Positions 18,345 through 34,798 of a stretch of DNA of 64,000 bases are shown piece after piece (the first letter of the stretch is position 1; the number at the start of each line of letters is the position of its first letter). The translations under genes were made by a program, and so were the position numbers. The notes below the pieces were generated by a model, which did not search any database, was not told the DNA's origin, and saw only the letters and a list, made by a program, of their open reading frames with translations. This stretch comes from Aeromicrobium flavum (GTDB lineage Bacteria > Actinomycetota > Actinomycetes > Propionibacteriales > Nocardioidaceae), in contig NZ_BJZQ01000005.1 in assembly GCF_007992115.1 (NCBI RefSeq), positions 1 through 64,000 on the forward strand, in the 5' to 3' direction.

Positions 18345-19267
18345 GCAGGTCGCCATCGATGGTCTTCGAACTGCCAGCCAAGCTCGGCTCTCACGCAAAC
18401 CATCAGCACGAACCTGAGGGGTGGAGTGCGATTGCGGGCGCGCTCACCGTCTGGCTGCCGCTGCTGCTCATCGGCGCGGTTGCGGCAGGGTACGTCTGGC
18501 TCTCGATCCGCGAGAAGGCTGGTCGGGGGTGGCCGACGTCGAGGATCGCTCTCTTCCTCGTCGGGTCACTTCTGTTGCTGGTGGCACTCGGCCCCGGCCT
18601 CGACGGCTACGCGGACCGGGACTTCGGCGGACACATGGCGCAGCACCTCTTGCTGTCGATGATTGCTCCGCTTGCGTTGGTGCTTGCCGCGCCGGTGACC
18701 TTGCTGCTGCGACAGCTTCCCCACCGGCACGCGCGACGTCTCGGCAGGTTGCTCAACACGCCGGTGGTCCACTTCCTCTCACATCCGGTTGTGGGACTCA
18801 CGCTGACCAGCGGGGGGGGGCTCATCGTCCTGTACTTCACCCCGCTGTACGCACTCAGCACCACGAACGAGACGGTGCACGTCGCGGTGCACCTGCATCT
18901 CATCGCTTCGGGTTTGCTCTTCGCGTGGGCCATCGCCGGCCCCGACCCGGCCCCGCACCGGGCGTCCGTACGTTTCCGGCTCGTGGTTCTCGGTATCGCC
19001 ATCGTCATCCATTCGGCGGTCGCGCAGCTGATCTTTGCGGGCTTGTTCGTTCAGGTCCGGGAGCCGATCGATGAAATGCGGGCCGCGGGGAACCTCATGT
19101 ACTTCGGCGGAGACATCGCCGAGCTGCTGCTCGCCTTGGCGCTCCTGCTGACGTGGCGACCAGCTCCCGCCCCGGCGCCACCCGGCCTGGGGTCCAGCGC
19201 GACCTCGAAGGCGACGTCCACCGGTCGCGATCTCCATCCCGTGCTGGATACCGGTCAGGGTCGATGA
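18341..19267 (+). CDS. ctaG: CtaG-type (caa3) cytochrome oxidase assembly membrane protein
   Basis: Membrane protein of 308 residues from the GTG at 18341 (GTGA overlap with DUF2243; ATG 18359 possible). About seven spans. Family features are a His-rich first loop (HANHQHEPEGW), GHMAQHLLLSMIAPLALVLAAPVTLLLRQLP and HVAVHLHLIASGLLFAWAIAGPDP. These histidines suggest copper or heme handling; caa3_CtaG proteins are linked to copper delivery to oxidases. In this operon it precedes a bd oxidase, which has no copper, so its role may be metal supply or something not yet described. Overlaps cydA by 4 bp. Confidence 0.87.
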
Positions 19268-20694
19268 GCCTCTCGCTCCTTCAGGAAGTACTGCCGCACG
19301 CAGTCGGTTTGGAGCCGGAGGGCCTCCTCCCCGCTCGTCAGCAGATGGCGCTCTCCCTCGGCTGGCACATCATCTTGGCGTCGTTCGGTGTGGCCTTCCC
19401 GGCGATCATCTGGGCGGCGCACTGGCGAGGGGTGTACCGCGGCGACGACGTCGCCCTCAACCTGGCCAGACGGTGGGCCAAGGTCTCGGCGGTGCTGTTC
19501 GCGATCGGCGCGGTGTCCGGGACGGTCCTCAGCTTCGAGATGGGGCTGCTCTGGCCTGGACTCATGGGGCCCTACGGTGACGTCTTGGGTCTGCCGTTCG
19601 CCTTCGAGGGCCTCTCGTTCTTCGTGGAGGCCATCTTCCTCGGCATGTACCTCTATGGCTGGGGGCGTGTCCCGCCCAAGCGGCACCTGCTCATGCTGGT
19701 GCCCATGGCGATCGCGGGCGTCGTGGGCAGCTACTGCGTCATCTCGGTCAACGCCCGGATGAACATGCCGGTGGGCTTCCGCGTCGAGGATGGACAGGTC
19801 GTCGACGTGGACCCGTGGGCGGTGCTGTTCAACCCCGGCGCAATCCTGCAGTTCGCGCACATGTGGGTCGCGGCCTACATGGTCGTCGGCTTCACGGTGG
19901 CCGGGGTCTACGCCGCCGGCATGCTCCGTGGACGCCGCGACCGACATCACCGGCTCGGTTTCACCATTCCCTTCGTCTTCGCCAGCGCGGCCGCAGTGGT
20001 GCAGCCCTTCCTCGGCCACGTCCTCGGCCTGCGGATCGCCGAGGCCCAGCCGGCCAAGCTCGCTGCCTTCGAGCTCGCGACGGAGACCGAGAGTCCCTCG
20101 CCGCTGCGGCTCGGAGGCCTGCTCATCGACGGTGAGGTTCGCTACTCCCTGGACATCCCTGGCCTCGGGTCGATCATCGCGCGCAACTCCTTCACCAAAC
20201 CCGTCCAGGGGCTGGAGACCATCGCGCCCGCGGACCGGCCCCCCGTCAACATCACCCACGTCGCCTTCCAATCCATGGTCGGCATCGGCACGCTCCTGTT
20301 CGTCGCGGTGCTCGTCTACTGGTTCGTCCGCTGGCGCGGACGCGACCTGCTCGACCACCGATGGACGCTGCGGGCCGCGGTCGCAGCGGGCCCGCTCGCG
20401 GTCGTGGCCATGGAGGCAGGTTGGATCGCGACCGAGGTGGGCCGCCAACCCTGGGTCGTCTACGGGTACCTGCGCACTCCCGACGCGGCAGGGGACAACC
20501 CACAGATCTGGATCCTCCTGGTGGCCACGGCCGTCCTCTACACCGGTCTCACCGTGGGGGCGGTGGTCGTGCTGCGCTCGATGGCTCGGCGATGGCGCGC
20601 CGGCGAGGAGGACCTGCCCAGCCCGTACGGGCCTGAGTCGGCTGCAGCGGGCGGCGCCTCGCGGCCCCACGACCGTGGTCCGGAGGCGTCGTGA
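19264..20694 (+). CDS. cydA: Cytochrome bd-type quinol oxidase subunit I
   Basis: 476-residue membrane subunit carrying the hemes. Seen: N-terminal ARQQMALSLGWHIILASFGVAFP with a heme-ligand His, a second conserved block FEMGLLWPGLMGPYGDVLGLPFAFEGLSFFVEAIFLG, and the CydA hallmark GRQPW in ATEVGRQPWVVYG near residue 395. The quinol loop looks short, as in the CIO/short-Q-loop group. Bd oxidases reduce O2 with quinol and tolerate sulfide better than heme-copper oxidases, which fits control by a persulfide sensor. It overlaps ctaG and cydB by 4 bp each. Confidence 0.95.
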   Translation: MSLSLLQEVLPHAVGLEPEGLLPARQQMALSLGWHIILASFGVAFPAIIWAAHWRGVYRGDDVALNLARRWAKVSAVLFAIGAVSGTVLSFEMGLLWPGLMGPYGDVLGLPFAFEGLSFFVEAIFLGMYLYGWGRVPPKRHLLMLVPMAIAGVVGSYCVISVNARMNMPVGFRVEDGQVVDVDPWAVLFNPGAILQFAHMWVAAYMVVGFTVAGVYAAGMLRGRRDRHHRLGFTIPFVFASAAAVVQPFLGHVLGLRIAEAQPAKLAAFELATETESPSPLRLGGLLIDGEVRYSLDIPGLGSIIARNSFTKPVQGLETIAPADRPPVNITHVAFQSMVGIGTLLFVAVLVYWFVRWRGRDLLDHRWTLRAAVAAGPLAVVAMEAGWIATEVGRQPWVVYGYLRTPDAAGDNPQIWILLVATAVLYTGLTVGAVVVLRSMARRWRAGEEDLPSPYGPESAAAGGASRPHDRGPEAS

Positions 20695-21692
20695 CCCTCG
20701 AGCTCGCCGTGGCGGTTGCCCTGTTCGCCGGAGTCGTCGCCTACGCGCTGTTCGGCGGCGCTGACTTCGGATCCGGGTTCTACGACCTCACTGCCGGAAG
20801 TGCCCACCGTGGCTCCGAGCTTCGGACCCTCGTCGACCACAGCATCGGGCCGGTGTGGGAGGCCAACCACGTGTGGCTCATCTACATTCTGGTGATGTGG
20901 TGGACGGGCTTTCCCGAGTCCTTCGCCAGCGCGATGAGCACCCTGATCCTGCCGATGCTCCTGGCTCTGCTGGGGATAGTCCTGCGGGGGTCGTCGTTCG
21001 CGTTCCGCAAGTTCGCCCCGACGATCGGCCAGGCGAGGTTGTACGGCGCAATCTTCGCCGGCTCATCGCTGATCACGCCGTTCTTCCTCGGCACGGTGGC
21101 CGGGGCCATCGCCTCGGGCCGTGTGCCGGCGCAGGGACGCGGGGACCTGTGGTCGTCCTGGCTCAATCCCACGTCGCTGCTGGGCGGCGTCATCGCTGTG
21201 GGGAGCAGCGCCTTCCTCGCGGGGGTGTTCCTCACCGCCGAGGCCCACCACGCGGACCGCGGAGCGCTGACGGCCTCGCTGCGTCGACGCACCCTCGCGG
21301 TGGGAGCGGTCACCGGTGCGGTCGTCTTCGCGGCGCTGATCCCGATCCTGCACGACGCTCCCACGCTTGCCGACGGACTGACAGGGCGTGCCGCACCTCT
21401 GATCATCGCCTCAGGTCTGGCCGGAGCAACAGCCTTGGCCCTGGTGGCCGCGCGGCGCTACGGTCCGGCGCGCATCAGCGCAGTCGCTGCCGTGGCGTCG
21501 GTCATCAGCGGCTGGGGGGTGGGCCAGTACCCGTGGCTGCTCGTTGACGAGGTCCGCATCGCCGACGGTGGTGGTGCGGACGCGACCCTGGCCGGGCTGC
21601 TTGTCGTGGTCGGACTCGCCGGTGTGCTGGTTCTTCCCCCGCTGGTCTATCTCTTCCGGCTCACTCAGTCCGATGAATGGGTGCAGCATTGA
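20691..21692 (+). CDS. cydB: Cytochrome bd-type quinol oxidase subunit II
   Basis: 333-residue partner of CydA with about nine spans. The N-terminal YALFGGADFGSGFYDLTAGS and WEANHVWLIYILVMWWTGFPESFAS are CydB family signatures. The GTG start overlaps the cydA stop by 4 bp. No cydDC assembly exporter and no convincing CydX-like small subunit follow. Last gene of the trxA-cydB operon. Confidence 0.95.
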   Translation: MTLELAVAVALFAGVVAYALFGGADFGSGFYDLTAGSAHRGSELRTLVDHSIGPVWEANHVWLIYILVMWWTGFPESFASAMSTLILPMLLALLGIVLRGSSFAFRKFAPTIGQARLYGAIFAGSSLITPFFLGTVAGAIASGRVPAQGRGDLWSSWLNPTSLLGGVIAVGSSAFLAGVFLTAEAHHADRGALTASLRRRTLAVGAVTGAVVFAALIPILHDAPTLADGLTGRAAPLIIASGLAGATALALVAARRYGPARISAVAAVASVISGWGVGQYPWLLVDEVRIADGGGADATLAGLLVVVGLAGVLVLPPLVYLFRLTQSDEWVQH

Positions 21693-21694
21693 CG

Positions 21695-21713
21695 CCAACC
21701 GCCAACGGGTTGG
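21695..21713 (+). terminator. Weak hairpin after cydB
   Basis: CCAACC-N7-GGTTGG stem 3 bp after the cydB stop, without a following T-run. It may reduce read-through or stabilise the operon mRNA. Confidence 0.3.
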
Positions 21714-21722
21714 TCGGTCAGC

Positions 21723-21800
21723 ACATCGCCAACGCGAGACGACCACGTCACCTCGGAAGCGATGACCGCCCGAAGGGATCGGACTTCCAATTGGCGATGT
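21723..21800. repeat. Perfect 10-bp inverted repeat, arms 58 bp apart
   Basis: ACATCGCCAA at 21723-21732 and its reverse complement TTGGCGATGT at 21791-21800. The right arm ends at the GTAAC of the ECF-type promoter. Possibly a looping operator or chance. Confidence 0.45.
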
Positions 21801-21826
21801 AACGACTTCGGCCCACGATGCGTCTA
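21799..21826 (+). promoter_or_regulatory. ECF-sigma-type promoter (GTAAC-N17-CGTCTA)
   Basis: GTAAC at 21799-21803 and CGTCTA at 21821-21826 match the general AAC / CGTC form of ECF promoters with 17-bp spacing. It lies 29 bp upstream of the DUF2892 gene, whose downstream neighbour encodes an ECF sigma factor, so autoregulation is likely. Confidence 0.55.
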
Positions 21827-21855
21827 AGTGGTAAACCTAGTCGAAGGAGAATCTG

Positions 21856-22098
21856 ATGAGACTCAATATGGGTACCCTCGACCGTCGGCTGCGCTTGTTC
21901 ATCCTTGCACCGATCCTGGTCATCGCCGGCGTGATCGTCGGCCCGACGAGCATCCTCGCGATCGTGCTGTACGTGCTCGCTGCGGTCATGGTGGGGACCT
22001 CGCTGGCGGGCTCGTGTCCGTTGTACACGCTCTTCGGGATCCAGACCTGCCCGAAGCAGACGTTCACCACGGCCGACGAGGGGGGAGTCGCCCGCTGA
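21856..22098 (+). CDS. DUF2892 (YgaP-like) small membrane protein
   Basis: 80 residues: NMGTLDRRLRLFILAPILVIAG is the typical DUF2892 opening, with two membrane spans (about 14-32, 36-54), a loop with SCPLYTLFGIQTCPK (two cysteines) and a short tail. This fold is the membrane domain of the rhodanese YgaP and often accompanies sulfur-transfer genes. Start: ATG with GAAGGAG 7-8 bp upstream. It lies under the ECF-type promoter, and its stop overlaps the inferred CTG start of the sigma gene. Confidence 0.88.
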   Translation: MRLNMGTLDRRLRLFILAPILVIAGVIVGPTSILAIVLYVLAAVMVGTSLAGSCPLYTLFGIQTCPKQTFTTADEGGVAR

Positions 22099-22919
22099 GC
22101 CCGGCCGTCGATCCCGAGCGGCTCCGAGGCCGGCTCAGCGAAGAGATCCCGGGGCTTCTTCGGTATGCCCGGAGCATCACCCCGGACCGCGCGCTGGCCG
22201 AGGACCTCGTGCAGACCACGATGGTGCGGGCCTTGGAACGACTCGACACCTTTCGCGGCGAGTCCGGCCTGGCCACGTGGTTGCATCGGATCTTGCACAA
22301 CGCCTTCGTGGATCACGTCCGCCGCACCCGAGAGGCGCCCGCCGAGGACGTGTGGGAGATGGTGGAGGGGCGCTGGCGCGACGATGCCTACACCCTGGAT
22401 CCCGCCACCGTGGCCGCACGGGCGAGCACGGTGCAGGACCTGCGCGACGCACTCCTGCGCCTACCGATGATGTACCGCAGCGCAGTGGTGCTCCACGACA
22501 TGGAGGGTCTCACGGTGCCGCAGATCGCCCGGGTCCAAGAGATCGGGCTCTCCGCTGCCAAACAACGCCTGCACCGCGGCCGCATCATGCTCGTCAGCGC
22601 ACTCGCATCCGGAGCCGAGCGCCGAGCGGCCACGAGAGGAGTGCCGATGAACTGCTGGGACGCACGCACGCAGGTGTCCGACTACCTCGACGACGAGCTC
22701 GGCGACCGCGACCGGCAGCTCCTCGAACAACATCTGGAGCATTGCCCAACCTGCCCACCGCTCTACTCGGCCCTGGTTGCCTCCCGCGACGCGGTCACCA
22801 GGCTCCGCGACGCCGACACGGTCATCCCACGAAGTCTCGCGGACCGACTAGAGCGGCTCCGTCAAGAATCTCGCCGGCCAAAGGAAGACGCCCCACCACC
22901 GGCTCCGCGCGTCATCTGA
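22095..22919 (+). CDS. ECF sigma factor fused to a zf-HC2 anti-sigma-like domain
   Basis: About 274 residues. Sigma region 2 (LRYARSITPDRALAEDLVQTTMVRALERLDTFRGESGLATWLHRILHNAFVDHVRR) is at about 22-80 and region 4 (LLRLPMMYRSAVVLHDMEGLTVPQIARVQ, then SAAKQRLHRGR) at about 115-165. Then, without a stop, comes a zinc-binding anti-sigma segment: MNCWDARTQVSDYLDDELGDRD followed by HLEHCPTC (C-H-C-C). Start: no ATG or GTG fits close to region 2; CTG at 22095 overlaps the upstream stop (CTGA) and has GAGGGGGGAG about 7 bp upstream, so a rare CTG start is my best reading. An internal ATG with GAGAGG at the junction could also give a free anti-sigma protein. Confidence 0.8.
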   Translation: MSPAVDPERLRGRLSEEIPGLLRYARSITPDRALAEDLVQTTMVRALERLDTFRGESGLATWLHRILHNAFVDHVRRTREAPAEDVWEMVEGRWRDDAYTLDPATVAARASTVQDLRDALLRLPMMYRSAVVLHDMEGLTVPQIARVQEIGLSAAKQRLHRGRIMLVSALASGAERRAATRGVPMNCWDARTQVSDYLDDELGDRDRQLLEQHLEHCPTCPPLYSALVASRDAVTRLRDADTVIPRSLADRLERLRQESRRPKEDAPPPAPRVI

Positions 22920-23098
22920 TCAGGCGGGAACAGTTGGCGCTGCGACCGCCGGACCACAACACCCATCATGGCGCGAGGTGGGGCACGCGACGACGGCGCC
23001 GGCAGTCGCCGGAGAACCTGACAACAGCCTGGACGTGAGGAAGAAGGAGAGCTTCCTTCGCTCGCCGACCTGATCCGTGTCAATCATGCCGGACCCGG

Positions 23099-23950
23099 TC
23101 ACCGCGCTGCAGGTGTGTCGGTGCGTTTCATGCGGCGCCAGGCCACGAACGAGGAGACCGCCAGAACGACCGCGGGCAGGACCCACGCCGGGACGGACGC
23201 CGCAAGATCGCTGACGGCACGCTGGGCGTCGAACTCCATGTCCGTGGTGTCGCCGAACCCGAGGAATCCGGTGATTCCCGCGGTGCCGTCGAAGCGCAGG
23301 AAGAGCACGCCGATGACGACGAAGAGCAGCCCTGACAGCAGTGAGGTCGTGTGCAGGCGCAGGGGCCCGAGTTCAATCGTGCGACCGCGCAGCCAGCGGC
23401 GCCGGCCCAAGTCGAAGCGGTCCCACAGCGCGGCGAGCACCAGCAGTGGAGCTGCCATTCCCAGCGCGTACGCGGCAAGCAACAGGCCTCCGTGCCAGAC
23501 GGACGACTGCGTCGCGGCCATCGTGAGGATTGCGCCCAGCACGGGTCCGGAGCAGAATCCGGCCAGTCCGTAGACGGCACCGAGGGCCACGGTGCCCAGG
23601 TGGGAGGATCCGCCGTGCGCGGCCACGCGGCTCTGGAGAGCGGAGACGAACGGAATGGAGAAGCCCCGGCCCAGCAATTGCCACACCCCAAGTGCGATGA
23701 TCGTCCACCCGGCGATCGTGATGAGCACTGGCCGATGGCCGTAGAACAGCTGAGATGCAGCGCTGACCCCGAGCCCGAGCGGCACCAGAGTCAGGAGCAG
23801 GCCGAGGTAGAAGGACGCGGTTCGCCCCACCAAGGCTCCCGTGCTCCCGAACGCATAGGCGAAGAACGATGGCAGCAGTAGCGCACTGCAAGGAGACAAC
23901 AGTGCCAGGACTCCGGCCGCCAGCGCGGCCAGGAGCCCTACCTCACCCAC
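23099..23950 (-). CDS. ccdA: CcdA-like membrane thiol reductant transporter
   Basis: 283 residues from a GTG at 23950 that overlaps the DsbA-like gene by 8 bp. Six or more spans with the CcdA/DsbD pattern: LLSPCSALLLPSFFAYAFG in the first span and GLAGFCSGPVLGAIL in the fourth place the two redox cysteines within the membrane. It would pass electrons from cytosolic thioredoxin to extracytoplasmic thiol proteins, here presumably the DsbA-like partner. The C-terminal 60 residues include an extra span (WVLPAVVLAVSSFVAW). Last gene of a four-gene reverse operon. Confidence 0.87.
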   Translation of the reverse strand: MGEVGLLAALAAGVLALLSPCSALLLPSFFAYAFGSTGALVGRTASFYLGLLLTLVPLGLGVSAASQLFYGHRPVLITIAGWTIIALGVWQLLGRGFSIPFVSALQSRVAAHGGSSHLGTVALGAVYGLAGFCSGPVLGAILTMAATQSSVWHGGLLLAAYALGMAAPLLVLAALWDRFDLGRRRWLRGRTIELGPLRLHTTSLLSGLLFVVIGVLFLRFDGTAGITGFLGFGDTTDMEFDAQRAVSDLAASVPAWVLPAVVLAVSSFVAWRRMKRTDTPAAR

Positions 23951-24650
23951 GGGCGTCCTTGATCGCGGCGTCGATCGTTTCCACGAAGTCCTCGGTGGGC
24001 AAGGCACCCATCAGCACCCGATCGTTGATCAGGAACGCGGGCGTCCCCGTGACACCGATGGCCATGCCCTCGTCGCGGTCGCGTTTGATCGCTGCCGCGA
24101 CCTCGTCGGAGTCCATGTCCTTCAAGAAGCGGTCGGTGTCGAGTCCGAGGTCCTTCGCGATGCCGCTGAGGCGTTCGCGGTCCAGGCGGCCACTGTTGGG
24201 CGGTGGCTGCTCGGCGAAGAGCCGCTCATGGAACGGCCAGAAGCTGTCCTGTTCGGCCGCGGCTCGTGCTGCGCGTGCTGCTAGGTCGGACTCGTCCCCC
24301 AAGTAGGGGAAGTCTCGGAACTCGATCCGCAGCAGGCCTTGGTCGACGTACTTCTCGACGAGTTTCGGTGCGGTCTCTCGCGAGTACTTTCCGCAGAAGG
24401 GGCACTGAAACTCCGAGTACTCGATCATCACGACGGGGGCGTCGACGTCGCCCAGCGCCATGGGATCGTCGGCCTTGCGCCGCGCGAGTTCGGTGAGCTG
24501 GGAACTGCCCGCGTTCTCGGACGAGGTGACGGTGGCCGGACTCTCGTCGCCGGCTCCGCTGCCGCCACTTGCGACAGCGAGCATCAAAGCTACCGCGGCG
24601 CCGAGGGCGATGACGATCGGTAGGACCGGGATCTTACGGGTGTCGGACAT
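23943..24650 (-). CDS. DsbA-family thioredoxin-fold protein, membrane-anchored
   Basis: 235 residues: N-terminal anchor (about 8-28, VLPIVIALGAAVALMLAVASG), linker, then a DsbA-type domain with the active site CPFC (Cys83, Cys86) in EYSEFQCPFCGKYSRE and the cis-Pro loop GVTGTPAFLIND. It acts outside the membrane, forming or reducing disulfides. Coupled to CcdA (8-bp overlap) and to the upstream CPVC membrane protein (17-bp overlap), which implies a relay; with CcdA the reductive direction is plausible. Confidence 0.9.
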   Translation of the reverse strand: MSDTRKIPVLPIVIALGAAVALMLAVASGGSGAGDESPATVTSSENAGSSQLTELARRKADDPMALGDVDAPVVMIEYSEFQCPFCGKYSRETAPKLVEKYVDQGLLRIEFRDFPYLGDESDLAARAARAAAEQDSFWPFHERLFAEQPPPNSGRLDRERLSGIAKDLGLDTDRFLKDMDSDEVAAAIKRDRDEGMAIGVTGTPAFLINDRVLMGALPTEDFVETIDAAIKDARG

Positions 24651-25116
24651 GGGTACCTTCCTGGGTTCGGACGGCGCAGGCGATCTCGCCGAGAAGCCGT
24701 TGGCGCAGCGCCCAGAGCAGCAGGGCGACCGCGACGAGTTGGAGGATCGGCTGGATCGGCTCGAACCAGGTGATCGCGCCGGCGCTGCCCAGTGCGACGA
24801 GGACGAGCTTGTTGCAGACCGGGCAGCCGACAGCGAAGAATGTCAGGAATCCGCCGGCCCAACCCCCGCGTCGTGCTCTGGCCTCGTCAGCCATCCCCGC
24901 GGGGGCCGCGACGTACGTAGCAGCCAGCAGCCCGGCGAGAACGCCGGAAACCGCAAGTGACGGCCATGCCCACCACGGACTCGGGATCTCGCGACTGAAG
25001 AACGGTGTCTCCACCATGGCCGTCGGAATCGCGATGACGGCCATCACCAGGAGGGCGACCACCGCGGCCGTCAGCCAACGCCGCAGCGGCCACCGGCTAA
25101 GGGCGCGCGTCATCAT
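24634..25116 (-). CDS. Membrane protein with intramembrane CPVC motif
   Basis: 160 residues, four predicted spans (about 15-35, 48-70, 88-108, 122-140). The third span carries GCPVCNKLVLVALG, a Cys-x-x-Cys pair (98, 101) inside or at the edge of the membrane. The function is unknown to me. The ATG at 25116 overlaps the ArsR-rhodanese stop by 4 bp and the 3' end overlaps the DsbA-like gene by 17 bp. Context suggests a quinone- or thiol-linked redox partner (a DsbB/VKOR-like role) or a metal-handling protein, but it does not match those families in length or motif. Confidence 0.78.
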   Translation of the reverse strand: MMTRALSRWPLRRWLTAAVVALLVMAVIAIPTAMVETPFFSREIPSPWWAWPSLAVSGVLAGLLAATYVAAPAGMADEARARRGGWAGGFLTFFAVGCPVCNKLVLVALGSAGAITWFEPIQPILQLVAVALLLWALRQRLLGEIACAVRTQEGTHVRHP

Positions 25117-25769
25117 CGGCCGACCTCAACGGGTTGCCCGTGGCTTCGCCATTCGAGCATGCCGTCCTCGAGTCGCCGGGCCTGGACGCCCTCGCCTGAC
25201 AGGAGGCGGACAGCGTCGTGCGCCATGACGCAGAACGCGCCGCGGCAATAGGCGATGACATCCTCCGAACCCGTCAGCTCGGAAGCGCGCGCGATGACCT
25301 CGGCAAGGGGCACGCTGCGAGCACCGGGGATGTGTCCCGCAGCGAACTCCTCAGCGGGCCGCACGTCCAGGACGACTGCCTCGCCGCTCTCGAGGAGGCC
25401 GATCAGCTCTTCGCGGGTGACGATGCCCACCTCGTCGCCCGAGGGCACGCCGAGGTGGGACTCCAGGGCACGCTGAACCTGCGGCGACCGAGTGCGGGCG
25501 ACGGTTCGCATGGCGTCGTAGAGCTCGAGAACGTCGTCACCCGCGAGGCTGTAGTGGATCTTGGTGCCCTCGCGTCGCGACTGGACGAGGTTCGACAATT
25601 TGAGGACCTGCAGGTGGGCTGACACGGTGGTCAGTCCCATGTCCGCTGCTTTCGCCAAAGACTCGACCGTTCGCTCGCCCTGGGCCAGGAGGTCGATGAG
25701 TTCGAGCCGCTTCGGGCTGCCGAATGCCTTGCCGACGACTGCCAGCTCGTCGAATGCCGTTGTGTTCAC
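25113..25769 (-). CDS. ArsR-type winged helix fused to rhodanese domain
   Basis: 218 residues from the GTG at 25769 (AAGGGG about 8 bp upstream). Residues 5-95 are an ArsR helix-turn-helix (FGSPKRLELIDLLAQG, then TTVSAHLQVLKLSNLV). Residues 115-210 are a rhodanese domain with DVRPAEEFAAGHIPGA and the active loop CRGAFC (Cys175, Cys180). A DNA-binding protein with a sulfur-accepting Cys is a natural sensor of sulfane sulfur or oxidants. It leads the operon with the CPVC protein, DsbA and CcdA, which it probably controls via the inverted repeat at 25781-25803. Confidence 0.9.
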   Translation of the reverse strand: MNTTAFDELAVVGKAFGSPKRLELIDLLAQGERTVESLAKAADMGLTTVSAHLQVLKLSNLVQSRREGTKIHYSLAGDDVLELYDAMRTVARTRSPQVQRALESHLGVPSGDEVGIVTREELIGLLESGEAVVLDVRPAEEFAAGHIPGARSVPLAEVIARASELTGSEDVIAYCRGAFCVMAHDAVRLLSGEGVQARRLEDGMLEWRSHGQPVEVGR

Positions 25770-25780
25770 CTCTTCACCCC

Positions 25781-25803
25781 TTATCCAGTAATCTTTGGAA
25801 TAA
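25781..25803. promoter_or_regulatory. Inverted-repeat operator candidate upstream of ArsR-rhodanese gene
   Basis: TTATCCA-N8-TGGAATAA: an imperfect palindrome (one inserted base in one arm), 11 bp upstream of the start at 25769 in an AT-rich patch that is likely the promoter. The ArsR-rhodanese protein itself is the expected binder. Confidence 0.45.
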
Positions 25804-25946
25804 CGTATCAAGGGAACTCGACAGCAAGTGGCGCGCTCACTCGGGGTCCGGGTTCCGGTCAGGACGGGAGAACGAGTGCGAGTGCAGTTGTGTGACGATG
25901 ACGCCAGTGACTCGTCGGGATTTCGGCAGATCAGGAGGGCACGTAG

Positions 25947-27032
25947 GTGGACCAAGCGAAGGCGAGTCAGTCGAAGCTGAGTCGGCAGGACCTCCCGCTC
26001 CTGGCGGCCATGGGGGGCACGATCCTCGTCCTGCACGTCGTGGGAATCGCGCTGCTGGTGATCGCGGCGGGACAGGACGTCCGCCTCTCCAACGGCGCGT
26101 TCTTCAGCATTGGGCTCGGCGTCACGGCCTACACGCTGGGAATGCGGCATGCCTTCGATGCCGACCACATCGCGGCGATCGACAACACGACCCGCAAGTT
26201 GGTGGCGGAGGGTGGGCGCCCGCTCTCGGTGGGCTTCTGGTTCTCGCTGGGACATTCAAGCGTCGTGATGGGCCTTTGCGTGTTGCTGGCCATCGGAGTT
26301 CGGTCCCTGATCGGGCAGGTCAGCGACGACGCGTCCGAGCTGCAGCTGGTGGCAGGAGCGATTGGCGCCACGGTGGCCGGGCTGTTCCTCATCGCCATGG
26401 GGCTTATCAATCTCATCTCGCTCGCACGGATCGCGAGTCTGTTCCGCACCATGCGTGATGGGAAACTGGACGAGGCCGCACTGGAGCACGAACTCAACCG
26501 GCGCGGCCTGATCGCTCGAGTGCTCCGACCGTTGACGCGATCGGTGACGCGACCCAGGCACCTCTACCCGGTTGGCCTGCTGTTCGGACTGGGCTTCGAC
26601 ACCGCCACGGAGGTCTCCCTGCTCGCCCTCGCCGGCGGAGCCGCGCTGACCCTTCCCTGGTACGCGATCCTGTCGCTGCCGATCCTTTTCACCGCGGGCA
26701 TGTGCCTGTTCGACACCATCGACGGTGTCTTCATGAGGACGGCCTACGGGTGGGCGTTTGAGGCGCCGGTTCGCAAGGTCTACTACAACCTCGTCGTCAC
26801 GCTGCTGTCCGTCGTGGCGGCTCTGGTGATCGGAGTCATCGTCATCAGTGCGCTGGTGGCAGAGCACACCGAGATCAATGACGGGCCTGTCGCCATGCTG
26901 GCGCGGATCAACATGGACCTCGTCGGGTACGCGATGGTCGCCTTCTTCATCACGGCGTGGGCCGTGTCGACGTTGGCGTGGAGAGTGTTCCGGATCGAGG
27001 AACGATGGGTCCGCCCGCCGGCGCACGACTGA
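25947..27032 (+). CDS. NiCoT-family nickel/cobalt transporter
   Basis: 361-residue membrane protein with about eight spans. The family signature HAFDADHIAAID at residues 68-79 and the second block LLFGLGFDTATEVSLLALAG near 210-230 are both intact; the His and Asp residues of the first motif bind Ni2+ or Co2+. Start: GTG at 25947 with CAGGAGGG about 8 bp upstream. NiCoT proteins such as HoxN and NixA import the metal with high affinity. No nickel enzyme is nearby and no Ni riboswitch was seen, so its presence in a detoxification island is unexplained. It is the last gene before the tRNA remnant. Confidence 0.9.
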   Translation: MDQAKASQSKLSRQDLPLLAAMGGTILVLHVVGIALLVIAAGQDVRLSNGAFFSIGLGVTAYTLGMRHAFDADHIAAIDNTTRKLVAEGGRPLSVGFWFSLGHSSVVMGLCVLLAIGVRSLIGQVSDDASELQLVAGAIGATVAGLFLIAMGLINLISLARIASLFRTMRDGKLDEAALEHELNRRGLIARVLRPLTRSVTRPRHLYPVGLLFGLGFDTATEVSLLALAGGAALTLPWYAILSLPILFTAGMCLFDTIDGVFMRTAYGWAFEAPVRKVYYNLVVTLLSVVAALVIGVIVISALVAEHTEINDGPVAMLARINMDLVGYAMVAFFITAWAVSTLAWRVFRIEERWVRPPAHD

Positions 27033-27320
27033 TCGGTGACCTCGACAGTTGACGTAGCCGCGGATTCCCAGCTTCAGATGAGATTAGGCGGCCGACGGTC
27101 TCCGACGGGGCCGGGTTCACGTTCGCCTCCCAGGACCCGCAGGCTGGCGGCGATCGATCGGTCTGGTCGATCAGTGGCCATTTGGTGTCCGGATTGGCCC
27201 AGCGCGCCTCGCCGGTACTCGGGTATCGTCGGAAGTGACTCAAGGGGATCATCCCTACCATTGAAGGGAATTCCGCAGTTCTCGGTACCCAGCGTGTCGG
27301 CTCGTATAGAGCTCGGCTTC
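27033..27320. other. Gene-free stretch at the island edge
   Basis: 288 bp between the NiCoT gene and the tRNA remnant. No supported gene, no integrase and no complete tRNA. Frames that run through it carry no recognisable domain. Confidence 0.5.
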
Positions 27321-27356
27321 GACAGGGGGTCGCAGGTTCAAATCCTGTCAGCCCGA
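27321..27356 (+). other. 3'-end remnant of a tRNA gene (probable attachment site)
   Basis: The T-arm is intact: stem GCAGG (27332-27336), loop TTCAAAT, stem CCTGT (27344-27348), followed by the acceptor 3' strand CAGCCCG and discriminator A at 27356; CCA is not encoded. The matching 5' acceptor strand (CGGGCTG), D-arm and anticodon arm are absent upstream. The implied CGGG acceptor and the GGGGTCGCAGG variable/T-arm region suggest tRNA-Pro. A tRNA 3' end with its native terminator but without a 5' half is what remains on one side after a genetic element integrates into a tRNA gene. Confidence 0.65.
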
Positions 27357-27361
27357 CAACG

Positions 27362-27387
27362 GAAAGCCCCGGGAGACCGGGGCTTTC
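27362..27387 (+). terminator. Strong terminator after the tRNA remnant
   Basis: Perfect 11-bp stem GAAAGCCCCGG / CCGGGGCTTTC with a GAGA tetraloop, 6 bp after the tRNA 3' end. Probably the original terminator of the tRNA gene. Confidence 0.8.
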
Positions 27388-27418
27388 GTCATTTCTCGGG
27401 TGCGTCGAGGAGCGGGAT

Positions 27419-27613
27419 CTACTCGCGGGCCGGGGTGAGAGCCACGACGAGCGCACCTGTCACGAGGTAGACCAACTGCAGGACGTGGAACCCGCGGATC
27501 GAGGCGACCTCACCGACGAGCAGGTTCACTTCGGGGTCAGCCCCGACCGGGTGCCAGCCCGCGAACGCCGCCGTACCTCGCGCGGTGAGCATCCCCACCA
27601 GCGCTGTGAGCAC
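27419..27613 (-). CDS. Doubtful short hydrophobic reading frame, possible gene remnant
   Basis: 64-residue frame with a membrane-like end (RGFHVLQLVYLVTGALVVAL) that overlaps the 3' end of the AraC gene by 88 bp in another frame on the same strand. No ribosome-binding site was seen. It could be a small membrane protein or the tail of a gene broken by the integration event. I do not recognise it. Confidence 0.22.
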   Translation of the reverse strand: MLTALVGMLTARGTAAFAGWHPVGADPEVNLLVGEVASIRGFHVLQLVYLVTGALVVALTPARE

Positions 27614-28557
27614 CGACTGAGCACGGACTGCTCCGAGAAGCCCAGCGCGGAGGCGATCTGGCTCATCGCCATGGTGGTCGCCGTCAGGTAAGTGCGTGCC
27701 TTGGCTTGTCTCTGGGCGTCGAGCAGCGCGGCGAAGGACGTGCCTTCGCCAGCGAGGCGACGCTGCAGGGTGCGAGGGTGCATGGCGAGGATCGCGGCTG
27801 TCGAGTCGATGTCGACAGGTGCCGTGCCGAGCAGCTGCTCGATCGTGGACTCGACCCGCGGCGCGATGTCCCCGGGGATCGCGGTGTACCGCTGCAGGTG
27901 CTCGAGTGCGAGGTCGCGAACGACCGTGTCGGCTCGGTCGAGGGATCGGGTCAGCAAGGAGCTCGGGACGCGCAACAGGGCTCGTGGTCGGCCCGGCCTG
28001 ACCCGGGCGCCGAAGAACTCCTCGTAACGCGCCAGCGGGCTGATCGGCAGGTGCGGCAACTCGACGGAGCGCAGTCCATAGGGACCGGCGACGAACTCGC
28101 CGATGGCGCGGTGCAGGAATCCCAGTCCGGAGTCGATGCCCTGGCGGAAGGCGCCGCCACCGGCAGGCGTGGAGTACTGGATCGCGATGACGCCCGCCGC
28201 ACCGTGGGGATCGGGGACGATCTCGACGCTGAGTCCGGGCGCGTGGACGAACAGGTACCGAGACGTGCAGGCGAGGGCCTCCGCGACCGTGGGGGAGTTG
28301 CCGATGGCGACGGCCAGGGGGCCGAGCATCGAGGAGTCCTGCCTCTGGGCGACCCGTAGGCCGAGGTCGGGCAGATCGAGCTCGGCCGCGGCCAGCTCGA
28401 GCACTCGACCGAGGGCGAGCTCCTCCACGAGGATCTCGTCGCTGCGCAGCGCCTCCACGGGCAGCCGCACGCGCCGGGCGAGGTCCTCCGGATCCCCGCC
28501 GTGCTCGGAGACGAGGTCGGCGAACCCACGGATACCAGCCGAGCGGATCAGAGCCAT
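27526..28557 (-). CDS. AraC-family regulator with arabinose-binding-like N-domain
   Basis: 343 residues. The N-terminal domain (about 15-190) is of the HTH-linked arabinose_bd type (RRVRLPVEALRSDEILVEELALGRVLELAAAELDLPDLGLRVAQRQ). The C-terminal AraC helix-turn-helix pair has MHPRTLQRRLAGEGTSFAALLDAQRQAKARTYL and IASALGFSEQSVLSRCSQRWWGCSP. The ATG at 28557 is preferred over a TTG 15 bp upstream. It is divergent from a Baeyer-Villiger monooxygenase, 69 bp between starts, and most likely activates it in response to the monooxygenase substrate. Confidence 0.88.
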   Translation of the reverse strand: MALIRSAGIRGFADLVSEHGGDPEDLARRVRLPVEALRSDEILVEELALGRVLELAAAELDLPDLGLRVAQRQDSSMLGPLAVAIGNSPTVAEALACTSRYLFVHAPGLSVEIVPDPHGAAGVIAIQYSTPAGGGAFRQGIDSGLGFLHRAIGEFVAGPYGLRSVELPHLPISPLARYEEFFGARVRPGRPRALLRVPSSLLTRSLDRADTVVRDLALEHLQRYTAIPGDIAPRVESTIEQLLGTAPVDIDSTAAILAMHPRTLQRRLAGEGTSFAALLDAQRQAKARTYLTATTMAMSQIASALGFSEQSVLSRCSQRWWGCSPREVRRRSRAGTRSGLTPK

Positions 28558-28626
28558 GTCGTTCAGGGTCAAGTAGTTGTCGCCTCAGGTCAAGTCTGCG
28601 CAGCCGGGACAGGTCATGCTCGACGC

Positions 28627-30132
28627 ATGAGCACGCGAGAGCAGACCCCGTCTGACCACGTCGACGTCGTCATCGTCGGAGCGGGTCTGTCCGGTGTCGG
28701 GGCGGCCTACCGCCTCCAGACCGAGGCACCCGGCACCAGCTACACGATCCTGGAGGGTCGCACCGCCCTCGGTGGCACGTGGGACCTGTTCCGTTACCCG
28801 GGCATCCGCTCGGACTCGGACATGTACACGCTCGGGTACTCCTTCAAGCCGTGGCGGGACGGGAAGGCGCTGGCTGACGGAGCGTCGATCCTGGAGTACA
28901 TCCGCGAGACCGCGGACGAGTTCGGGATCGAGGAGCACATCCGGTACGCCAGCAAGGTCGTCGACGCCGACTTCGACACCGAGTCCGGACACTGGACCCT
29001 GACCATCGAGGACACGACCACCGGCGACCGGCGCTCGATGACGTGCGGCTTCCTCTACTCCTGCGCGGGCTACTACGACTACGACGACCCCCAGGCTCCG
29101 GAGTTCCCCGGGGCGGAGACGTTCACGGGACGAGTCGTCCATCCCCAGTTCTGGCCGACGGATCTCGACCACGACGGCAGCCGGGTGGTGGTGATCGGTT
29201 CGGGAGCGACCGCCGTGACGCTGGTGCCCGCGATGCTCGCCGGCGACGAGGCGGCCGCGCACGTCACCATGCTCCAGCGAACGCCGACCTGGATCAGCGC
29301 GGTGCCGTCCACCGACAAGCTCGCCGAGCGCCTGAAGTCCGTCCTGCCCGCGAAGGTCGCCCACCGCGCCGTTCGCGCCAAGAACATCGCCTTCTCGACC
29401 GCCGTGTACCAGTTCTGCCGTCGCTGGCCCGAGAAGGCCCGCACGGTGCTGACGGCCAACGTGGCCAAGTTCGTGGGCGAGGATCAGACCGCTGCGCACT
29501 TCACCCCGCCGTACGACCCCTGGGACCAGCGGCTGTGCGCCGTCCCCGGCGGCGACCTGTTCAGGTCCATCACGTCCGGCCGTGCCGAGGTCGTGACCGA
29601 TCACATCGAACGGTTCGTCCCCGAGGGGATCCTGCTGCGGTCGGGGCGCATCCTCGAGGCGGACATCATCGTCACTGCGACAGGCCTTCGGCTGTCGGCG
29701 TTCGGAGGGATCCGACCGAGCGTGGACGGCGAACAGGTCGTCCTTTCCGACCAGTTCGTCTGGAACGGCGCCATGATCACCGGGATCCCGAACTTCGCCA
29801 TCTGCATCGGCTACACCAACGCCTCGTGGACCCTGAGGGCCGACCTGACGCATCGCCTGGTCTGCAAGGTCATCAACTGGATGGGACGCAACGGGCACCG
29901 CGCGGTCGAGCCTGCTCCCGACGCTGAGCTGACGCCCCAGCCGCTGCTGGACCTGTCATCGGGCTATGTCCAGCGCGCCATCGACGCCTTCCCGCGCCAG
30001 GGCGACCGACGACCGTGGCAGGTCCGTCAGAACTACGTCCTCGACTCCATCACGACCCTGCGCACCGACCTCGACACGACGCTGCGACCCGTCCCGGCGC
30101 GTAGACGCGCGCCCGGCCGCGTCGCGGTCTGA
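28627..30132 (+). CDS. Baeyer-Villiger/EthA-like flavin monooxygenase
   Basis: 501 residues. FAD motif GAGLSGVGAAYRL (18-30), ALGGTWDLFRYPGIRSDSDMYTLGYSFKPW near 48-76, the BVMO fingerprint FTGRVVHPQFWP at 166-177 (F-x-G-x3-H-x3-W-P) and the NADPH motif VVIGSGATAVT at about 187-197. Inserts oxygen next to a ketone using NADPH and O2; the RSDSDMYTLGY pattern is the EthA type. The start follows CATGCT by 6 nt, so it is possibly leaderless. The divergent AraC gene suggests substrate-induced expression. Confidence 0.92.
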   Translation: MSTREQTPSDHVDVVIVGAGLSGVGAAYRLQTEAPGTSYTILEGRTALGGTWDLFRYPGIRSDSDMYTLGYSFKPWRDGKALADGASILEYIRETADEFGIEEHIRYASKVVDADFDTESGHWTLTIEDTTTGDRRSMTCGFLYSCAGYYDYDDPQAPEFPGAETFTGRVVHPQFWPTDLDHDGSRVVVIGSGATAVTLVPAMLAGDEAAAHVTMLQRTPTWISAVPSTDKLAERLKSVLPAKVAHRAVRAKNIAFSTAVYQFCRRWPEKARTVLTANVAKFVGEDQTAAHFTPPYDPWDQRLCAVPGGDLFRSITSGRAEVVTDHIERFVPEGILLRSGRILEADIIVTATGLRLSAFGGIRPSVDGEQVVLSDQFVWNGAMITGIPNFAICIGYTNASWTLRADLTHRLVCKVINWMGRNGHRAVEPAPDAELTPQPLLDLSSGYVQRAIDAFPRQGDRRPWQVRQNYVLDSITTLRTDLDTTLRPVPARRRAPGRVAV

Positions 30133-30166
30133 TCCGTCGTCGGGGAGGCGTCTTCGCCGCCCGAGG

Positions 30167-30592
30167 TCAGGCAGGGCCGGCCGCGCGGTGGATCCGCGTC
30201 CGGAACTCCGTCAGGTCCAGCCCGTACGTCGGACCGCCGGTGGCGGCGTAACGCTCGAGCCGGCCGTTGCCGCGCTCGAGCAGCCGCCCGGCGCCGATGG
30301 TGTTGCCGCGCAGGGCGTGGGTCAGCCCGACGCACAACTGCGCGAGCCCCTGCCAGAGGTCGTGCTCGGTTCCCGGAGCGTCCTTCCACCGGGCCTCGAA
30401 GACCTCGTGGGCCGAGAACGGCCGCCCGCGGTCCAACAGCTCGAGGGCGAACCGCACCGTCTCCAGGGGCGGTAACGGGTCTTCGGAGACCGGATCGACC
30501 CCCTCAGCGCCGTACGGCAGCGGTCGGCCGAGCTCGTCGCGCGGCCTGGCCTGGCGCGGCCGGCCCTCCTCGTCGCGGTCCCTGGTCACCAT
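30167..30592 (-). CDS. DUF309 domain protein
   Basis: 141 residues. Arginine-rich N-terminus (RDRDEEGRPRQARPRDELGRPLPYG) typical of actinobacterial members, then the helical DUF309 core LELLDRGRPFSAHEVFEARWK, then LWQGLAQLCVGLTHALRGN. The family signature (AHEVFE..W) suggests a metal- or small-molecule-binding helical bundle; function unknown. Start: ATG 30592, preceded on its strand by GACAGT and a 6-nt gap. It converges on the BVMO gene. Confidence 0.87.
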   Translation of the reverse strand: MVTRDRDEEGRPRQARPRDELGRPLPYGAEGVDPVSEDPLPPLETVRFALELLDRGRPFSAHEVFEARWKDAPGTEHDLWQGLAQLCVGLTHALRGNTIGAGRLLERGNGRLERYAATGGPTYGLDLTEFRTRIHRAAGPA

Positions 30593-30702
30593 GGGGCCAC
30601 TGTCCCGCCCCTCGCGCGCCGAGACAAACCCGGGGCCGGATGTCGGCTGGAGGTCGTCGCGGTTCACCGTCACTCGGCTGGCGGGGCCGGGGTGAGGCCA
30701 CC

Positions 30703-32661
30703 ATGCTGGAACGCGTGACGACTTCCTCCGAGCTGGCGGAGCTGGCCGCCGCCCACCACGTCGCGACGCGGTACCGCGGGTCCGATCGCGAGATGGTCGA
30801 GGTGGCCCCCGAGGTCGTCGTCGCGGTTTTGGCCCAGCTCGGCGTGGACGCGAGCAGCCCGGAATCGATCCAGCGCGAGCTCGACGCGGTGCGACGAGAG
30901 CAGGCGCGGACCTCCCTGCCGCCGACGATCGTCCTGACCGCCGGCACGACGCGTGAGCTGGAGGTGGCGGCGACGCTGGTGCTCGAGGACGGCACGTCGT
31001 CGCAGGTCGACCGACTCGCCGACGACCTTCCCCTGGGGTGGCACCGGCTGGTCACCGACACCCAGGAGGTGACGGTGATCGTCGCTCCGGGCCGCATGCC
31101 CGAGGTCCCGCGCACGTGGGGCTGGATGCTCCAGCTGTACGCGCTGCACTCGCGCGGGTCCTGGGGGATGGGGGACTACGTCGACCTGGCCGAGATGGCG
31201 CGACGCGCCGGGACGGAGCAGGGTGCGGGCGTCCTTCTCGTGAACCCGGTCCAGGCGTTCATGCCCACGCGACCCCTGGAGCGCTCTCCCTACTCGCCGT
31301 CCAGCCGCCGGTACGCCAACCCGCTCTACCTCCGGGTCTCCGAGACGGCGGCGTTCCGGGCGGCCGACGACGAGACTCGGGCGGCGGTGCTGGCGCTGGC
31401 GCCCGACCACGACACCGGGCTGATCGACTACGACGAGGTCTGGGCCGCCAAGCTGGCCGCCTGCGAGATGTTGTGGGCGACGGGGATCGACACCCAGGCC
31501 GACATCGACCCTGACCTGCTGATGTTCGCCACCTTCTCCGCCCTCGCGGAGGTGCACGGTGCCGACTGGCGCGAGTGGCCGGAGGAGCTGCGGAACCCGA
31601 TCGGCGGGGCCGTGGCCGAGGCGGAGCGCTCCCTCGCGGATCGCGTCGCCTTCCACGCGTGGCTGCAGCGACTGTGCCGGGAGCAGCTCGACGAGGCCCG
31701 GTCGGCGGCCCGGGACGCCGGGATGGCCGTCGGCATCGTGCACGACCTGCCCGTCGGCGTGCACCCGGGCGGCGCGGACGCCTGGGCGCTGCAGGAGTCC
31801 TTCGCCTCGGACGTCCGCGTGGGGTGTCCCGCCGACGCGTTCAATCCGCTCGGCCAGGACTGGGGACTGCCTCCGTGGCGGCCGGACAAGCTCGCCGAGT
31901 CGGGCTACGCACCCTTCCGCGACGTGATCCGCAGCGTCCTGCGCCACGCGGACGGCATCCGCGTCGATCACATCGCCGGACTGTGGCGCCTGTGGTGGAT
32001 CCCGCCGGGCGAGCCGGCACACCGTGGCACCTACGTCCACTACGACGCTGACGTCATGCTCGGGATCCTGGCCCTCGAGGCCTACCGGGCCGGGGCAGTG
32101 GTGGTGGGGGAGGATCTCGGCACCGTCGAGGACGAGGTGACCGAGACGATGCACGAGCGCGGGATGCTCAGCTCGGCCGTGCTGTGGTTCGAGCGCGACT
32201 GGGAGGCGCCGGGCCAGCCGCACGTGCCGCCCGAACAGTGGGAGCCCGAGACGATGGCCAGCATCAGCACCCACGACCTGCCGACGGTCGCCGGCTGGCT
32301 GCAGGACGAGCGCGTCCGCATCCAGGCCGATCTCGGCCTGCTCGCCGGGACGGCCGAGGAGGCCTACGCCGAGGCCGAGTCCGACCGTGAAGCGATGCTC
32401 GACCTGCTGCGGGCCGAAGGAGTCCCGGACGACGATCTCGTCGTCGCGCTGCACGCGGTGATCGCCCGCGCCTCGTCCCGGCTGGTCCTCAGCTCGCCGG
32501 CCGACGCGTCCGGCCAGGTGCAGCAGCCGAACCTCCCGGGTACGGTCGACGAGTACCCCAACTGGAGGATCCGTCTGCCGATGGACCTCGACCAGTTCTT
32601 CGCCGACGACCGGGTACGTGCCTGCACCACCCCCTTGCAGGCCTCGCGCCCGTCCACGTGA
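30703..32661 (+). CDS. malQ: 4-alpha-glucanotransferase (amylomaltase, GH77)
   Basis: 652 residues. Transfers glucan segments between maltodextrins in the cytosol. N-terminal extension (about 1-120) as in actinobacterial MalQ, then the GH77 barrel: WMLQLYALHSRGSWGMGDY, GCPADAFNPLGQDWGLPPWRPD, nucleophile Asp in DGIRVDHIAGLWRLWW, acid/base Glu in VVVGEDLGTVEDEV, third Asp in STHDLPTVAGW. Start: ATG 30703 with GGTGAGG 5-6 bp upstream. Opens the 16-kb glucan cluster and overlaps glgX by 4 bp (GTGA). Confidence 0.95.
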   Translation: MLERVTTSSELAELAAAHHVATRYRGSDREMVEVAPEVVVAVLAQLGVDASSPESIQRELDAVRREQARTSLPPTIVLTAGTTRELEVAATLVLEDGTSSQVDRLADDLPLGWHRLVTDTQEVTVIVAPGRMPEVPRTWGWMLQLYALHSRGSWGMGDYVDLAEMARRAGTEQGAGVLLVNPVQAFMPTRPLERSPYSPSSRRYANPLYLRVSETAAFRAADDETRAAVLALAPDHDTGLIDYDEVWAAKLAACEMLWATGIDTQADIDPDLLMFATFSALAEVHGADWREWPEELRNPIGGAVAEAERSLADRVAFHAWLQRLCREQLDEARSAARDAGMAVGIVHDLPVGVHPGGADAWALQESFASDVRVGCPADAFNPLGQDWGLPPWRPDKLAESGYAPFRDVIRSVLRHADGIRVDHIAGLWRLWWIPPGEPAHRGTYVHYDADVMLGILALEAYRAGAVVVGEDLGTVEDEVTETMHERGMLSSAVLWFERDWEAPGQPHVPPEQWEPETMASISTHDLPTVAGWLQDERVRIQADLGLLAGTAEEAYAEAESDREAMLDLLRAEGVPDDDLVVALHAVIARASSRLVLSSPADASGQVQQPNLPGTVDEYPNWRIRLPMDLDQFFADDRVRACTTPLQASRPST

Positions 32662-34796
32662 ACGACACCCCCTCATCACAAGGAGAGCTCGTGCAACCCT
32701 GGCCCGGATCGTCCTATCCGCTCGGCGCCACCTTCGACGGGACCGGCACCAACTTCGCCGTCTTCTCCGAGGCGGCCGAGTTCGTGGAGCTCTGCCTGTT
32801 CGACGAGGCGGGCACCGAGACGCGGGTCCGCCTGGAGGAGGTCGACGGCTTCGTCCACCACGGGTTCCTGCTCGGGGTCGCTCCCGGCCAGCGCTACGGC
32901 TTCCGCGTGCACGGCCCGTACGAGCCGGAGAACGGGTCCCGCTGCAATCCCGCCAAGCTGCTGATCGACCCGTACGCCAAGGCGACCTCCGGCTCGGTCG
33001 ACTGGGACCCGTCGCTGTTCGCGTACGACCTCGACAACCCGGACGAGGTCAACGACGAGGACTCGGCCGGTCACGTCCCGTACTCGGTGGTCATCAACCC
33101 CTACTTCGACTGGGGCGACGACCGGCGGCCGCGCACGCCGTACAACGAGTCGGTGATCTACGAGGCCCACGTCAAGGGCCTGACGATGACCCATCCCGAG
33201 GTGCCGGACGCGCTGCGGGGCACGTACGCGGGCATCGCCCACCCGGCCATCGTCAAGCACCTGAAGTCGATCGGCGTGACCGCGATCGAGCTGCTGCCCG
33301 TGCACCAGTTCCTGACCGACCACTACCTGGCCGAGAAGGGCCTCACCAACTACTGGGGCTACAACACGATCGGCTTCTTCGCCCCGCACGCGGAGTACGC
33401 CGCCCACCCGGGACGCCAGGTGGAGGAGTTCAAGGGCATGGTGCGTGCGTTGCACCAGGCGGACATGGAGGTCATCCTCGACGTCGTCTACAACCACACG
33501 GCGGAGGGCAACCACCTCGGGCCGACGCTGTCGATGCGCGGCATCGACAACTGTGCGTACTACCGGCTCGTCGAGGACGACGAGCAGCACTACATGGACT
33601 ACACCGGCACCGGCAACTCGCTCAACGTGCGTCACCCGCACACGCTGCAGCTCATCATGGACTCGCTGCGCTACTGGGTGACCGAGATGCACGTGGACGG
33701 CTTCCGCTTCGACCTCGCCGCGACCCTCGCCCGGGAGTTCTACGACGTCGACAAGCTCGCGACCTTCTTCGAGCTCGTCCAGCAGGACCCGGTCGTCAGC
33801 CAGGTCAAGCTCATCGCCGAGCCGTGGGACGTCGGTCCCGGCGGGTACCAGGTCGGCAACTTCCCTCCGCTGTGGACGGAGTGGAACGGCCTCTACCGGG
33901 ACACCGTCCGCGACTTCTGGCGTGGAGAGCCCGCGACGCTGGGCGAGTTCGCCTCGCGCATCGCCGGGTCGTCCGACCTCTACCAGGACAACGGACGACG
34001 GCCGTACGCCTCGATCAACTTCGTCACGGCGCACGACGGGTTCACGCTCAACGACCTCGTGACCTACAACGACAAGCACAACGACGCGAACGGCGAGGAC
34101 GGCCGCGACGGCGCGGACGACAACCGCTCGTGGAACTGCGGAGTCGAGGGGCCGACCGACGATCCCGAGGTGCTCGAGCTGCGCCGCCGCCAACGCCGCA
34201 ACCTCATGGCCACCCTGCTGCTGTCCCAGGGCGTGCCGATGATCCTCCACGGCGACGAGCTCGGCCGGTCCCAGTACGGCAACAACAACGTCTACTGCCA
34301 GGACAACGAGGTCAGCTGGGTCGACTGGGACTCCCGCGCGGAGGAGCGCGCGCTGCTGGAGTTCACCGCCGCCCTGACGGCGTTCCGGAAGCGGCATCCG
34401 GTGTTCCGTCGCCGCCGCTTCTTCGAGGGCAAGCCGGTCCGCAAGACCGACGGCCTGCGGGACATCGCCTGGTTCACCCCGGCGGGCGACGAGATGGAGG
34501 AGAAGCACTGGGACGACGACCTGGGCAAGTCGATCGCCGTGTTCCTCAACGGCAACGCGATCGCCGACCGCGACGCCCGAGGCGTGCGCGTCAGGGGCAA
34601 CTCGTTCCTGCTGGCGTTCAACGCCCACAGCGAGCCGGTGGACTTCATCCTCCCCGGCGACGACTACGGCAGCGACTGGCGCGTCGTCGTCGACAGCTCG
34701 ACCGGTGCCGTCGAGCAGCCGGGCGCGGAGACGTTCGGCGCCGGTGCGACCCTCACGGTTCCCGACCGCTCACTCGTCGTGCTGGAGCGAGTCTGA
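32658..34796 (+). CDS. glgX: Glycogen debranching enzyme (GH13, GlgX type)
   Basis: 712 residues. Cleaves alpha-1,6 branches of phosphorylase-limit glycogen to feed MalQ and TreY. N-terminal CBM48 (YPLGATFDGTGTNFAVFSEAAEFVELCLFDE), VDGFRFDLAATLARE with the nucleophile Asp, KLIAEPWDVGPGGYQVGNFPP with the acid/base Glu, NFVTAHDGFTLNDLVTYNDKHN. The sequence after the His-Asp motif follows the GlgX/TreX subgroup. GTG start overlaps malQ; treY begins 2 bp after its stop. A large open antisense frame across it is a GC shadow. Confidence 0.95.
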   Translation: MNDTPSSQGELVQPWPGSSYPLGATFDGTGTNFAVFSEAAEFVELCLFDEAGTETRVRLEEVDGFVHHGFLLGVAPGQRYGFRVHGPYEPENGSRCNPAKLLIDPYAKATSGSVDWDPSLFAYDLDNPDEVNDEDSAGHVPYSVVINPYFDWGDDRRPRTPYNESVIYEAHVKGLTMTHPEVPDALRGTYAGIAHPAIVKHLKSIGVTAIELLPVHQFLTDHYLAEKGLTNYWGYNTIGFFAPHAEYAAHPGRQVEEFKGMVRALHQADMEVILDVVYNHTAEGNHLGPTLSMRGIDNCAYYRLVEDDEQHYMDYTGTGNSLNVRHPHTLQLIMDSLRYWVTEMHVDGFRFDLAATLAREFYDVDKLATFFELVQQDPVVSQVKLIAEPWDVGPGGYQVGNFPPLWTEWNGLYRDTVRDFWRGEPATLGEFASRIAGSSDLYQDNGRRPYASINFVTAHDGFTLNDLVTYNDKHNDANGEDGRDGADDNRSWNCGVEGPTDDPEVLELRRRQRRNLMATLLLSQGVPMILHGDELGRSQYGNNNVYCQDNEVSWVDWDSRAEERALLEFTAALTAFRKRHPVFRRRRFFEGKPVRKTDGLRDIAWFTPAGDEMEEKHWDDDLGKSIAVFLNGNAIADRDARGVRVRGNSFLLAFNAHSEPVDFILPGDDYGSDWRVVVDSSTGAVEQPGAETFGAGATLTVPDRSLVVLERV

Positions 34797-34798
34797 CC

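Follow-up and report, generated by a model that had tools for sequence, protein, structure and literature searches.

A tRNA-Pro(GGG) 3'-end fragment as the probable right attachment site of a tandem genomic-island array

The tRNA-Pro fragment and its terminator

How did the 3' end of a tRNA gene, equipped with a terminator and lacking its 5' half, come to stand beside a set of metal-resistance genes? The window (64,000 nucleotides) corresponds to positions 1-64000 of contig C5 in the 3.09-Mb draft genome G000, which consists of 31 contigs. The forward-strand segment 27323-27357 (CAGGGGGTCGCAGGTTCAAATCCTGTCAGCCCGAC) is identical in all 35 positions to the 3' end (C1:542242-542276) of an intact tRNA-Pro(GGG) gene (C1:542202-542276) on another contig, C1, and spans the anticodon-stem 3' strand, the variable loop, the T-arm and the acceptor 3' strand. 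A search of G000 returned this intact gene as the sole exact copy of the 35 nt besides the window itself; an exact match of this length is not due to chance. We interpret 27323-27357, with high confidence, as the attR (right attachment site) of a tandem genomic-island array integrated at the 3' end of tRNA-Pro(GGG).

ARAGORN called no tRNA in the window, an Rfam scan of the window for structured RNAs found no family at threshold, and a permissive scan scored 15.8 bits for a tRNA at 27298-27356 (cut-off 29). The weak full-length score and the absence of a tRNA call are consistent with a 3' fragment only. The fragment is followed on the forward strand by the native flank of the interrupted gene (27358-27395), with a terminator-like hairpin of 11 pairs and a T-rich tail at 27362-27387. 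The whole of 27323-27395 is identical (73/73 nt) to the tRNA end and terminator of a complete tRNA-Pro(GGG) in G017, a genome of the same genus. The initial annotation described a tRNA 3' remnant with its own terminator and without a 5' half, which agrees with the 35/35 match, the 11-pair hairpin and the missing tRNA call, and it anticipated a second tRNA-Pro copy to the left, which exists at C1:542202 with the identical 35-nt end. The fragment had been marked at 27321-27387; its start has to be moved by two bases, as 27321-27322 read GA in place of the GT of the tRNA and identity begins only at 27323.

The empty site and the extent of the insertion

In G017 the terminator directly follows the 3' end of the complete tRNA-Pro(GGG), i.e. 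the locus is empty, and the composite of C1:542176-542276 and window 27358-27395 matches G017 without interruption (135/139). The locus is nearly empty in G006: its left flank is collinear with C1 (C1:541163-542387, 87%) through the tRNA and the first 110 bases of the island, the tRNA tail and terminator come about 1.5 kb further on, and the window genes from 47125 onward (84%) come in order after the terminator. The sequences that flank the tRNA on its left in C1 and the mark on its right in the window were thus once adjacent, and all that lies between them is inserted. The comparison with relatives devoid of the island, called for by the initial annotation, therefore upheld an insertion. Window 27396-47100 was not found at the tRNA-Pro place in the compared parts of G006 and G017, hence the native side of the locus is variable too.

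A fragment with only the 5' part of tRNA-Pro is also present in G017 (C1:1512749-1512800), with a complete tRNA-Pro further on. The same holds for G031 (C74:263-224 with C2:38-112 and C2:4703-4746), where the native tRNA-Pro gene seems to be divided into two parts, separated by a complete tRNA that is carried by an element.

The inserted DNA runs over two contigs. C1 terminates 40 codons into trxB, after ArsR-like, ACR3-like and ArsC-like genes (named from sequence and gene order, not from a profile), and the window begins inside trxB, followed by an ArsR-family gene. In G031, the C1 end (C2:148521-150675, 94%) and the window start (C2:150774-153289, 96%) stand side by side, and the 98 nt between the two matches lie inside one complete trxB frame. 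A housekeeping trxB, located at the ends of contigs C18 and C27 and 97% alike at the protein and 89% at the DNA level, accounts for the assembly break in this gene, and also offers a wrong join partner; the ars surroundings of both contig ends and the gene order in G031 argue for the join of C1 to the window. From the split trxB and the G031 order we infer this join, which is not read across in the draft genome. Of the insert, 51.6 kb then lie on C1 and 27.3 kb in the window, which together with the missing ~0.1 kb gives approximately 79 kb; the tRNA 3' end stands as a direct repeat at both ends (C1:542242-542276 and window 27323-27357), and the tRNA is intact at C1.

According to the proposed mechanism, a tyrosine integrase would have carried out recombination between the tRNA 3' end and an excised island in circular form, at the 35-nt core common to both. 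The tRNA gene would thereby be kept whole at the left end (C1:542202), and the original 3' end with its terminator would have been moved to the right, to window 27323-27395.

Units, junctions and cargo of the array

Besides the intact tRNA at the left, three junction traces were found (C1:566183, window ~11150 and window 27323), and only the outer two core copies of the array are perfect. At the right edge (27131-27357), the right end of an element family meets a perfect core, followed by native DNA. This conserved right end (27131-27322, forward strand) has copies of 76-87% identity that abut other core copies (C1:566033-566182; G031 C2:147701-147891, C2:155784-155931 and C66:20644); the copy at C1:331989 abuts a core copy in part. 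At C1:566033-566213 a degraded core (C1:566183) comes after the right end, and the same degraded junction is found in G031 at C66:20790. Complete junctions, consisting of right end, core and left end, are present in G031 at C2:147891 and C2:155932.

Inside the window, the junction has collapsed to a relic of some 250 bp and is no clean att site. A truncated right end (11000-11146, forward strand), 84.6% identical to G031 C2:155702-155850, a stretch immediately to the left of a complete junction (right end, core, left end), is fused at ~11150 to a left-end relic (11150-11245, forward strand; STSRLAIGTYGSIV) with the last xis codons and the first codons of a tRNA-Pro-type integrase (90.7% to C1:542638-542734); the att core and about 0.4 kb that would separate the two ends are missing. 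These traces delimit at least three units: the first, left-most at C1:542277-566213, the middle one from C1:566214 to window ~11150, and the third, right-most at 11165-27322, bounded by the relic and attR. The right part of the middle unit (1-11146) is partly collinear with G031 (1-2518 and 8586-11146 with C2:150774-155850, 95%), and is interrupted by a 6.07-kb segment (2519-8585) absent from the otherwise collinear G031 island, in which the flanks meet at the same base (C2:153289). The segment carries ABC phosphate-type transporter genes and a low-molecular-weight (LMW) phosphatase (Pfam); it sits within the ars unit and shows no obvious target duplication.

Could all of this be one large island, brought in by a single integration at tRNA-Pro, whose inner repeats belong to the island itself and are not old attachment sites? 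The imperfect inner junctions would fit such a reading, the one at C1:566183 being degraded and that at window ~11150 being devoid of a core. In G031, however, the same element family forms intact right-end/core/left-end junctions, of which one is at the place equivalent to the collapsed window junction; G031 also shares the degraded C1:566183 junction (C66:20790), and its 8-kb ars unit between C2:147891 and 155932 nearly stands alone between two cores. We regard a single integration as very improbable. The initial annotation had proposed a single genomic island with its right boundary at the mark: the boundary stands, and the single island gives way to an array of at least three units.

A different objection takes 27298-27387 for a duplicated gene of a small functional RNA, made up of a tRNA-like part and a terminator, and not for an integration scar. 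The second copy at C1:331989-332106 (90%), which includes the end, the core and the terminator, and the sequence being drawable as a tRNA-like fold (weak matches) are in its favour. Against it, no Rfam family reached threshold, and the two halves assort independently: the part left of the core also occurs at tandem junctions where other sequence comes after the core, and the part right of it also occurs at empty sites. This leaves the RNA-gene reading with hardly any probability, and attR of a tandem array as the preferred interpretation of the mark.

The C1:331989-332106 locus (L068) itself, a 90% copy of window 27278-27395 that comprises right end, core and native terminator, lies in an unrelated region and has no intact tRNA in its vicinity. 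On the same contig are an integrase (337629-338195) and a second ars-like segment (339877-341905, 86% to C1:591732-593776).

The cargo of the array consists of copper, mercury, cadmium, zinc and arsenic genes together with sulfur/redox genes. According to Pfam, the C1 part encodes metal-type P-ATPases with HMA domains, a CsoR-type repressor, CueP, a cadmium transporter, a further P-ATPase, a cation efflux protein, ResB, cytochrome c assembly proteins and a pyridine nucleotide-disulphide oxidoreductase that is mercuric-reductase-like by context. Window 1-11146 contributes the 3' part of trxB, an ArsR regulator, a flavoprotein, pst-like ABC transporter genes and LMW phosphatase/ArsC-like proteins; 11165-27322 contributes MMPL and TauE/SafE transporters, MBL-rhodanese, rhodanese, thioredoxin, a CsoR-type repressor, cytochrome bd, CtaG, DsbA/DsbD-like proteins, ArsR-rhodanese and a NicO nickel transporter. 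The ResB/cytochrome c assembly module occurs in two diverged copies (about 70%) within the array (C1:558190-565831 and 579021-588903).

The array has a lower GC content (65-68%) than its flanks (70-72%); the predicted rise at the mark was recovered in the window (67.7% to the left, 71.3% to the right; Mann-Whitney p = 1.2e-7). Large island segments (up to 21.6 kb) share 94-98.6% identity with G031, with lower values for shorter matches, whereas three core comparisons between G000 and G031 gave 69-82% identity. This difference speaks for a recent transfer, and a recent exchange between species is the simplest reading. Plasmid copies of the cargo, among the matches listed, were at gene level only (72-82%), and none of them covers most of the query.

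Integrases and relation to known elements

A xis-like gene, coding for a 72-amino-acid HTH_17 (excisionase-like) protein, and the start of an integrase gene lie within 0.5 kb of the intact tRNA-Pro (C1:542456-543185). The integrase keeps its first ~120 codons, after which the frame is lost, and the array yielded no complete integrase specific to tRNA-Pro. Relatives of the fragment are present in 10 of the 48 other genomes of the genus; in G025 a homologous integrase fragment lies 0.4 kb 3' of tRNA-Pro(GGG), and in G016 a relative lies 0.45 kb 3' of a sequence reading as tRNA-Met (anticodon read by eye). G027 has an intact homologue of the tRNA-Pro-side integrase, with a reading frame of 401 amino acids. 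The initial annotation saw no integrase in the window and expected it at the other end. The other end does carry the xis-like gene and the integrase start, albeit truncated; the window is not free of integrase sequence, as the relic at ~11150-11245 reveals.

The sole intact integrase of the array (C1:567040-568386) was considered as the enzyme of the tRNA-Pro island and set aside. The best-matching relatives from named genomes, Nocardioides and Aeromicrobium among them, are 60-79% identical to it. In 10 of the 13 best (L089-L101), a tRNA-Leu precedes the match by about 50-105 nt, and the gene itself directly follows a tRNA-Leu 3' end that lacks the 5' half; no phage relatives at or above 60% identity were found. 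This integrase was probably captured with a tRNA-Leu element.

The integrations at tRNA-Pro would have used the tRNA-Pro-side integrase family. Repeated integration at one core, or exchange between islands with common ends, may have produced the at least three stacked units, and later decay of the inner junctions and of the tRNA-Pro-side integrase would have fixed much of the array. We infer this order of events, and that the array would no longer excise as a unit by its own integrase. More tentatively, and with somewhat less than even confidence, we suggest that the tRNA-Pro locus of the genus may be a shared docking bay: metal-resistance units with common ends would be stacked there repeatedly, exchanged from species to species and then locked in place as cores and integrases decay, and units of a tRNA-Leu system would have been captured there as well.

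The mechanism is a familiar one and the array a well-supported example of it, tandem accretion at a tRNA gene being already known. Composite islands that arise by tandem accretion and are stabilised by truncated att sites or integrases have been described (PMC8978831). The array resembles the ICESt1/CIME302-type composite islands and CIMEs of that work in its units stacked at one tRNA with att cores between them, in some units lacking a working integrase, and in the stabilising truncation of att sites and integrases. It differs from them in its host (a high-GC actinobacterium), in its cargo (metal and sulfur/redox resistance) and in its sole intact integrase, which comes from a tRNA-Leu-associated family. 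In Actinobacteria, integration into tRNA 3' ends and tandem copies have been described (PMC3218068), and the array shares with the tyrosine-integrase elements of this group, including AICEs (in tandem in tRNA-Lys and tRNA-Arg; PMC3218068), the tRNA 3'-end direct repeat at both ends and the tandem copies; at its tRNA-side end, where those elements have xis/int, it carries the xis-like gene and the truncated integrase.

For the locus itself, the right edge of the acquired metal-resistance region is fixed to the base, and the mark sets the acquired genes apart from native metabolism. Intact, degraded and collapsed junctions at one locus across neighbouring species form a graded series for the formation and fixation of tandem islands.

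An AICE was taken to require a module of Int, Rep and an FtsK/TraB-type Tra. Unlike AICEs, the array has no such translocase: a PF01580 search of C1:542277-593887 and window 1-27323 gave no match, which places the array outside this definition. Elsewhere on the same contig, about 24 kb to the left of tRNA-Pro, an FtsK-type translocase and a tyrosine integrase lie within 5 kb of each other (C1:513600-518622) and may belong to an AICE-like element.
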